Assembly (NCBI GenBank): GCA_001443445.1
Contig: LDXN01000006.1
Location: 1-64,000, forward strand
DNA: 64,000 nucleotides
Direction of reading: 5' to 3'
Source: Candidatus Dadabacteria bacterium CSP1-2
Lineage (GTDB): Bacteria; Desulfobacterota_D; UBA1144; Nemesobacterales; CSP1-2
Made by a program: the position numbers and the translations under genes. Below the pieces are notes generated by a model that saw only the letters and a list, made by a program, of their open reading frames with translations, was not told where the DNA came from and ran no database searches. Of this stretch, positions 40,584-42,758 are shown one piece after another; the first letter of the stretch is position 1, and each line of letters starts with the position of its first letter.

Positions 40584-41003
40584 ATGAAATATGTTTCTAA
40601 ATCTCTATTTTGTGTATTCACATATTGTTTTATGTCTTTTGTGACTTTTGCTGCTCAAGAAGAATCCAAACCATTTGAAGCTAAACTCTCAGAAGATGGC
40701 ATTCAAAGGGTAGAGGTTATAGTAGATAGCTACTCGTTTGATCCCAATCAAATAATAGTAGTTGTAAATAAACCTGTAGAAATTACATTAAAGAGTGTAA
40801 CAAAGATTGTCCCTCACAATTTTACTCTCAATTATCCTGAAGCAGGATTAAATATAGACCAAGATATTGTACCAGGGGAAGAAATCAAAATAACTTTTAC
40901 ACCGACAAAGACCGGTAGCTTTGAATTCTACTGTAATAAAAAAGGTCTATTTGGCAGTCATCTGAAAAAGGGAATGAAAGCCGTTCTGGAAGTAAGAGGA
41001 TAG
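40584..41003 (+). CDS. Periplasmic cupredoxin-like protein
   Basis: A 139-residue protein with a signal peptide (about 1-23, ending FAAQEE). The mature part is a cupredoxin beta sandwich. Copper-ligand candidates are in order: His in VPHNFTL, Cys in FEFYCNKKG, His in GSHLKKGM and the Met that follows, the pattern of mononuclear blue copper proteins. AAGGAG is 12 bases before the chosen ATG because an ATG five bases upstream is followed by an immediate stop. It may carry electrons or buffer copper; no oxidase is adjacent. Confidence 0.85.
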   Translation: MKYVSKSLFCVFTYCFMSFVTFAAQEESKPFEAKLSEDGIQRVEVIVDSYSFDPNQIIVVVNKPVEITLKSVTKIVPHNFTLNYPEAGLNIDQDIVPGEEIKITFTPTKTGSFEFYCNKKGLFGSHLKKGMKAVLEVRG

Positions 41004-41169: not shown

Positions 41170-42231
41170 ATGTCAAAAGTAGTTTCTGTTGGTATATCGG
41201 ATGCTCCTTATAAGATATATCAAAATGAAGTAAAGGATTTTGTGTATCAACTGTTCCATCAAGGGCGAGAGGATATTGATAGATTAATCAATGTATTTGA
41301 TAACTCTATGATACAACAACGGCATTTCGCTCAACCAAAGGAATGGGCTAGCCAACAACACAGTTTTAAAGAGCGTAACGAATTATACGTTAAGAATGCG
41401 TGTAATCTTTCTGCTGCAGCCACAAATGATTGTATGAAAAGAATAAACGCAGAGCTTTCTGATTTTGACCATATCATATTTATTTCAAGCACAGGTATCT
41501 CAACACCAAGTATAGACGCCTTACTGATTAATGAACTTAAATTAAATCAGCACGTAAAAAGAACCCCTATCTGGGGATTGGGATGTGTAGGAGGTGCTGT
41601 TGGCCTAAGTCGTGCATTTGAATACACTCGCGCCTTTCCAAAGGGCGCAGCAATTGTTATAGCAGTTGAATTATGCAGTTTAACATTCCAGAGAGATGAT
41701 GACTCTAAAAGTAATATCATAGCCACTGCAATTTTCTCTGACGGAGCCGCAGCAGCGCTTGTAGTTGGGAGAGAAAACAAGCTTTTTCACAATAAGGGGA
41801 TAAACTTAATAGATTCACTCTCAACAACCTATTATGATTCGCTAGATGTAATGGGTTGGAAAGTAGTGGATAATGGCTTAAAGGTGATCTTTAGTAAGGA
41901 TATTCCTACAATAGTACGAAAGTGCGTAAGACCGAATATTTCTGAACTAACACAAAAACACAATCTATTAATTGAAGATATAAAGCATTTTGTTACACAT
42001 CCAGGCGGTCCGAAGGTTATAAATGCATATGAAGAATCTCTTAACCTAACCAACGGCTCGCTAGAGCTTTCAAGAAAGGTTCTACGTGAACACGGAAACA
42101 TGTCGTCACCTAGTGTGCTGTATGTATTAAATGAATTTCTTAGCGATGGAACATACAATCCTGGTGATTATGGTTTGATCTCTGCCCTTGGCCCAGGGTT
42201 TAGCTCTGAGTTAATTTTGTTTAAAGCCTGA
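41170..42231 (+). CDS. Type III polyketide synthase (chalcone synthase-like)
   Basis: A 353-residue homodimeric ketosynthase that extends an acyl-CoA starter with malonyl-CoA, without a carrier protein. The catalytic triad is intact: Cys139 in WGLGCVGGA, His277 in FVTHPGGPK and Asn310 in HGNMSSPS. FISSTGISTPSID is typical of bacterial alkylpyrone and alkylresorcinol synthases such as BpsA. The following gene overlaps its stop by one base and encodes a carboxyl methyltransferase-like membrane protein, as in Bacillus bpsA-bpsB. The likely product is a long-chain alkylpyrone, but starter and chain length cannot be read from sequence. Confidence 0.92.
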   Translation: MSKVVSVGISDAPYKIYQNEVKDFVYQLFHQGREDIDRLINVFDNSMIQQRHFAQPKEWASQQHSFKERNELYVKNACNLSAAATNDCMKRINAELSDFDHIIFISSTGISTPSIDALLINELKLNQHVKRTPIWGLGCVGGAVGLSRAFEYTRAFPKGAAIVIAVELCSLTFQRDDDSKSNIIATAIFSDGAAAALVVGRENKLFHNKGINLIDSLSTTYYDSLDVMGWKVVDNGLKVIFSKDIPTIVRKCVRPNISELTQKHNLLIEDIKHFVTHPGGPKVINAYEESLNLTNGSLELSRKVLREHGNMSSPSVLYVLNEFLSDGTYNPGDYGLISALGPGFSSELILFKA

Positions 42232-42758
42232 TGATAGCCTTTTGGTTATTTTTGCTTTTCGTAATTTTACAACGTCTAACCGAACTTCTCATTGCAAAGC
42301 GAAACGAAAAGATTCTTAAAGCCCAAGGAGCAATTGAGTTTGATAAGAATGGATATAAAGCGATTGCGGTGATGCATGTGGCTTTTTTTATTTCGCTTAT
42401 CTCTGAAAAGGTTTTTCTCCAGAGAACTTTAAATACATACTGGATTGCTTTTGCTGTTCTCTTTGCAGGAGCACAGGTTTTACGATACTGGGCAATTAAA
42501 AGCCTGGGTGTATACTGGAACACAAAAATTTTAGTCCTTCCAAATCATCAGTTAATTAACAGAGGTCCTTACAAACACCTCCGACATCCAAATTATATTG
42601 CAGTTGTAATAGAATTTGCTGTTATCCCTCTAATCTTTTCATGTTATCTAACAGCATTTGTATTTAGTCTAATTAACTTAATTTTGCTTAGGAGAAGAAT
42701 AAAGATTGAGGAGAGTGCAATAAGAAAAGCCTCAATAGGTTTTGCAACATTGCTATAG
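42231..42758 (+). CDS. Isoprenylcysteine carboxyl methyltransferase-like protein
   Basis: A 175-residue membrane protein with four to five hydrophobic segments and the ICMT core NRGPYKHLRHPNYIAVVIEF, the SAM-binding signature of the family. In Bacillus the equivalent BpsB methylates alkylpyrones made by BpsA. The ATG overlaps the stop of the polyketide synthase gene (TGATG arrangement), so the two are translated together. The C-terminus is slightly shorter and less conserved than usual. Confidence 0.85.
   Translation: MIAFWLFLLFVILQRLTELLIAKRNEKILKAQGAIEFDKNGYKAIAVMHVAFFISLISEKVFLQRTLNTYWIAFAVLFAGAQVLRYWAIKSLGVYWNTKILVLPNHQLINRGPYKHLRHPNYIAVVIEFAVIPLIFSCYLTAFVFSLINLILLRRRIKIEESAIRKASIGFATLL

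Follow-up and report, generated by a model that had tools for sequence, protein, structure and literature searches.

A type III polyketide synthase (PKS) gene that runs straight into a gene for an isoprenylcysteine carboxyl methyltransferase (ICMT)-like protein raises the question of what the two enzymes make together. The pair studied here lies in a 64,000-nucleotide stretch of DNA from Candidatus Dadabacteria bacterium CSP1-2 (contig LDXN01000006.1), which was analysed as a whole and is called the window below. We put the probability at about 0.78 that the pair is a module of the BpsA-BpsB kind, probably translationally coupled, that makes and methylates an alkylpyrone and/or an alkylresorcinol. 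Such a reading would mean that the BpsA-BpsB lipid module also occurs in a phylum without cultured members, where the pair looks vertically inherited. For bacteria from which hardly any natural products are known, the reading supplies a specific prediction, an alkylpyrone or alkylresorcinol in methylated form; it leaves the understanding of how type III PKS and methyltransferase enzymes work unchanged. According to PMC12795557, type III PKS clusters are common in Dadabacteria associated with organic carbon and have not been found in their pelagic relatives; the paper credits this statement to PMC8115339, whose main text contains no such words. When the sequence-only reading of this locus called the polyketide of the lineage unstudied, it was thus right about the product, while the presence of the genes had already been reported (PMC12795557). 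Our literature search, which was of partial coverage, returned no earlier report of the PKS-methyltransferase pairing or of a BpsA placement in Dadabacteria.

Both reading frames are open and intact (Table 1). The two chalcone/stilbene synthase domains of the PKS score over their Pfam cut-offs (PF00195, 2e-21; PF02797, 5e-19), its catalytic Cys, His and Asn are invariant across the aligned homologues, and its AlphaFold2 model (pLDDT 80, pTM 0.86) matches the thiolase fold, with M. tuberculosis Pks11 as the best hit (TM 0.88, E 3e-36) and CylI next. Triad, domains and fold together place the protein among the type III PKSs of the chalcone synthase superfamily, and the earlier description of an intact Cys-His-Asn enzyme of chalcone-synthase type is borne out. 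The gene is present in one copy in its genome; the closest record, at 93% identity, is from a Candidatus Dadabacteria metagenome-assembled genome, and the nearest sequence in the PDB is again Pks11 (36% identity, E 4e-64). Its partner shares with other such methyltransferases the invariant residues H119-P-N-Y122, E128, R156 and E160. A short C-terminus had raised the suspicion that this protein is truncated, which is ruled out by its length, since the Bacillus and Lysinibacillus partners have 168-180 residues; its structural model is poor (pLDDT 61) and was set aside. Judged by dN/dS against a genome of the same genus (0.09 for the PKS, 0.21 for the methyltransferase), both genes are under purifying selection.

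Table 1. Features of the PKS-methyltransferase locus, in window coordinates
Feature	Position	Strand	Remarks
Type III polyketide synthase, BpsA-type	41170-42231	+	353 aa; PF00195/PF02797; Cys139/His277/Asn310; Trp230
ICMT-family (BpsB-type) integral-membrane O-methyltransferase (predicted)	42231-42758	+	175 aa; PF04140 1.1e-26
Cupredoxin, small	40584-41003		directly 5' of PKS; kept in four other f1 genomes, 51-84% identity

The relationships of the PKS point to Bacillus. In a midpoint-rooted tree, the Dadabacteria orthologues form one clade (100/99) that is sister to the BpsA-type rows of Bacillus and Lysinibacillus (99/95) and stands apart from Pks11, CylI and the THNS enzymes; alphaproteobacterial pairs follow further out, then Pks11 and CylI together with a Streptomyces pair, and the THNS and PhlD-like rows are distant. 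Of the phylogenetic check proposed beforehand, the BpsA part came out as predicted, and ArsB, ArsC and germicidin synthase, which are not among the rows, lie outside the scope of the tree. The PKS is about 43-49% and the methyltransferase 42-46% identical to the Bacillus and Lysinibacillus rows, of which the B. velezensis one is a partial, unannotated copy, and the two-gene order and near-zero spacing are the same. An ICMT-family gene lies directly 3' of the PKS gene, as expected of a BpsB-type partner, in Bacillota (Lysinibacillus, Bacillus), Alphaproteobacteria (Azospirillum, Nitrobacter, Phyllobacterium, Marinovum, Sphingomonas), Streptomyces and Dadabacteria, and the best methyltransferase matches among plasmid records, which also include Rhizobium and Sulfitobacter, mostly adjoin a type III PKS. 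Over 33 loci, the pairwise identities of the PKS rise and fall with those of the methyltransferase (Spearman 0.92); such values are non-independent, and this and the following coefficients are descriptive. With sister placement, gene order and correlated divergence in agreement, the likeness to bpsA-bpsB seen earlier stands. What differs is the host, an uncultured candidate phylum, and the neighbourhood, which comprises genes for the aminopeptidase LAP, SppA and an aminotransferase and not those of Bacillus. Within Dadabacteria, the correlations (PKS-ICMT 0.75, PKS-LAP 0.80, ICMT-LAP 0.72) are as expected for shared vertical descent, and a recent horizontal acquisition, considered at the level of the order, is rejected in view of the single clade, the conserved locus and a divergence that tracks LAP. 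The comparison rows also held a plasmid labelled Stenotrophomonas rhizophila whose PKS is nearly identical to that of Lysinibacillus fusiformis (branch lengths 0 and 0.03; the records concerned are L034, CP065518.1, and CP031730.1); the Stenotrophomonas-labelled plasmid carries a FosB-like gene and may in fact be mislabelled Lysinibacillus DNA.

Changes at a few residues can be enough to shift the product specificity of a type III PKS, and the residue in question here is Trp230. It occurs in the BpsA-type rows of Bacillus and Lysinibacillus and in all 26 Dadabacteria orthologues. In the alignment it shares a column with Trp230 of Pks11, which corresponds to Trp230 of MMAR_2474 and is equated with Trp281 of ArsB. 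The PKS model is poor over residues 222-245, a stretch that includes this tryptophan, so the pocket was judged from the alignment alone. In ArsB, Trp281 is needed for resorcinol formation, and its change to Gly leads to a pyrone (PMC6274091, PMC5916927). The invariance of the residue makes an alkylresorcinol as possible as an alkylpyrone, and we put the chances of either ring being that of the main product at roughly even. The parallel that the sequence-only reading drew with the methylated alkylpyrones of Bacillus keeps the backing of the BpsA-type clade, while the ring type here is not fixed by a sequence in which Trp230 is invariant.

A stronger version of the resorcinol argument would make the PKS chiefly an alkylresorcinol synthase (ArsB/SrsA-like) that forms an aldol-cyclised tetraketide, which the methyltransferase would turn into a methoxy-phenolic lipid that might be a quinone precursor. 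The tryptophan at the ArsB position speaks for it. The same tryptophan, however, is found in pyrone-forming enzymes and is hence not diagnostic: Pks11, an alkylpyrone/alkylresorcinol synthase whose structure is the nearest solved one in both sequence and fold, and which lies in the tree with CylI and the Streptomyces row, off the branch that unites BpsA and Dadabacteria, converts C16/C18 acyl-CoA to methylated alkylpyrones (PMC6274091), and overexpression of bpsA-bpsB, whose BpsA-type rows carry it too, gave chiefly triketide pyrones with resorcinols in small amounts only (PMC5686519). No ring oxygenase adjoins the pair in the locus. We regard a chiefly resorcinol-forming enzyme as a tentative alternative. 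ArsB and ArsC of Azotobacter are themselves described as using long-chain acyl starters, as proposed here (PMC6274091); they receive them from a dedicated fatty acid synthase (ArsA), of which no counterpart adjoins the pair.

For the module of the BpsA-BpsB kind, we infer starter, ring type, methylation site, location and role as follows. The PKS would load a long-chain fatty acyl thioester onto Cys139 (a long acyl starter is very probable), add two or three malonyl or possibly methylmalonyl units, and close the chain into an alkyl-alpha-pyrone, an alkylresorcinol (in view of Trp230) or both. A ring hydroxyl would then be O-methylated with SAM by the membrane methyltransferase; that this enzyme acts on the PKS product is, in our judgement, highly likely. 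The resulting methyl ether would be neutral and lipid-like, and would probably stay in the envelope or leave as a signal; a membrane location is plausible.

How closely the two genes belong together bears on whether the methyltransferase acts on that product at all, since the ICMT family is broad, and its substrate could be a protein or another lipid, the genes being mere neighbours. The PKS stop and the methyltransferase start have the A at 42231 in common (TGATG), which together with the PF04140 match upholds the one-base overlap with an ICMT-like gene noted at the outset. Among 24 Dadabacteria loci, the overlap is 4 bp in 19 and 1 bp in the window and its sister G001, which suggests that translation of PKS and ICMT is coupled; three loci have no overlap, a point for separate functions. 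Promoter and terminator scans gave signals at chance level only. Orthologues of the PKS (at least 52% identity to the query) occur in 26 of the 44 genomes of the order, always in single copy, and every one of the 26 also has a methyltransferase match, although the G012 match is fragmentary and lies at a contig end on the opposite strand, and the G039 match is split across contig ends. One genome (L083, G009:C27:3500-5669) has the methyltransferase with no PKS detected upstream before a contig end close by, which again would suit an independent substrate. The pair recurs across the order, which excludes chance, and the overlap in most loci, the joint absence in small-genome relatives, the correlated divergence across phyla and the Bacillus precedent make mere neighbourhood improbable.

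Equally improbable is a short-chain or unusual starter (germicidin-, THNS- or DpgA-like) leading to a different product, for which there is an NCBIfam match to DpgA, since the tree sets the PKS apart from THNS, Pks11 is its best structural and sequence match, and identity with DpgA (dihydroxyphenylacetyl-CoA synthase) itself is rejected by a score far under the cut-off (190.7 against 425 bits) and by the presence of Cys139, DpgA working without a catalytic Cys (PMC6274091).

The surroundings of the pair vary. The usual locus in the order reads aminotransferase (+), SppA (-), LAP (-), a variable gene, PKS (+) and ICMT (+). At the variable position, several genomes from the family of the window have a cupredoxin gene, most f7 genomes have one for an ArsR-type regulator (there, DoxX lies 3' of the methyltransferase, for example in L048 and L053), and G008 and G013 have one for a protein with CBS domains. 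None of these changing neighbours is constant, and the module is thus PKS and ICMT alone.

The orthologue is absent from genus g12 (genomes of 1.3-1.9 Mb), from family f4 and from family f8 (about 1 Mb). Neither gene of the pair is present in small-genome relatives of the pelagic type, which nevertheless keep the neighbouring genes: in three g12 genomes that were inspected, aminotransferase and LAP genes remain close together and the pair is missing. Such a locus fits loss, with absence by ancestry as the alternative, and g12 presumably corresponds to the streamlined pelagic lineage described in PMC8115339. Missing where its neighbours are retained, the pair is a small marker of genome streamlining. 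It is conceivable, if rather unlikely, that the pair makes a structurally distinct O-methylated alkyl-polyketide lipid that served non-pelagic Dadabacteria ancestrally in the envelope or as a respiratory carrier and was lost on pelagic streamlining. Separately, one small-genome g12 bin contains, on a 4.4-kb contig (L064, G023:C129:1-4411), a tandem of divergent type III PKS genes (33-35% identity), one of the two without Trp230; both branch with alphaproteobacterial PKSs and may represent contaminating DNA or a further type of PKS.
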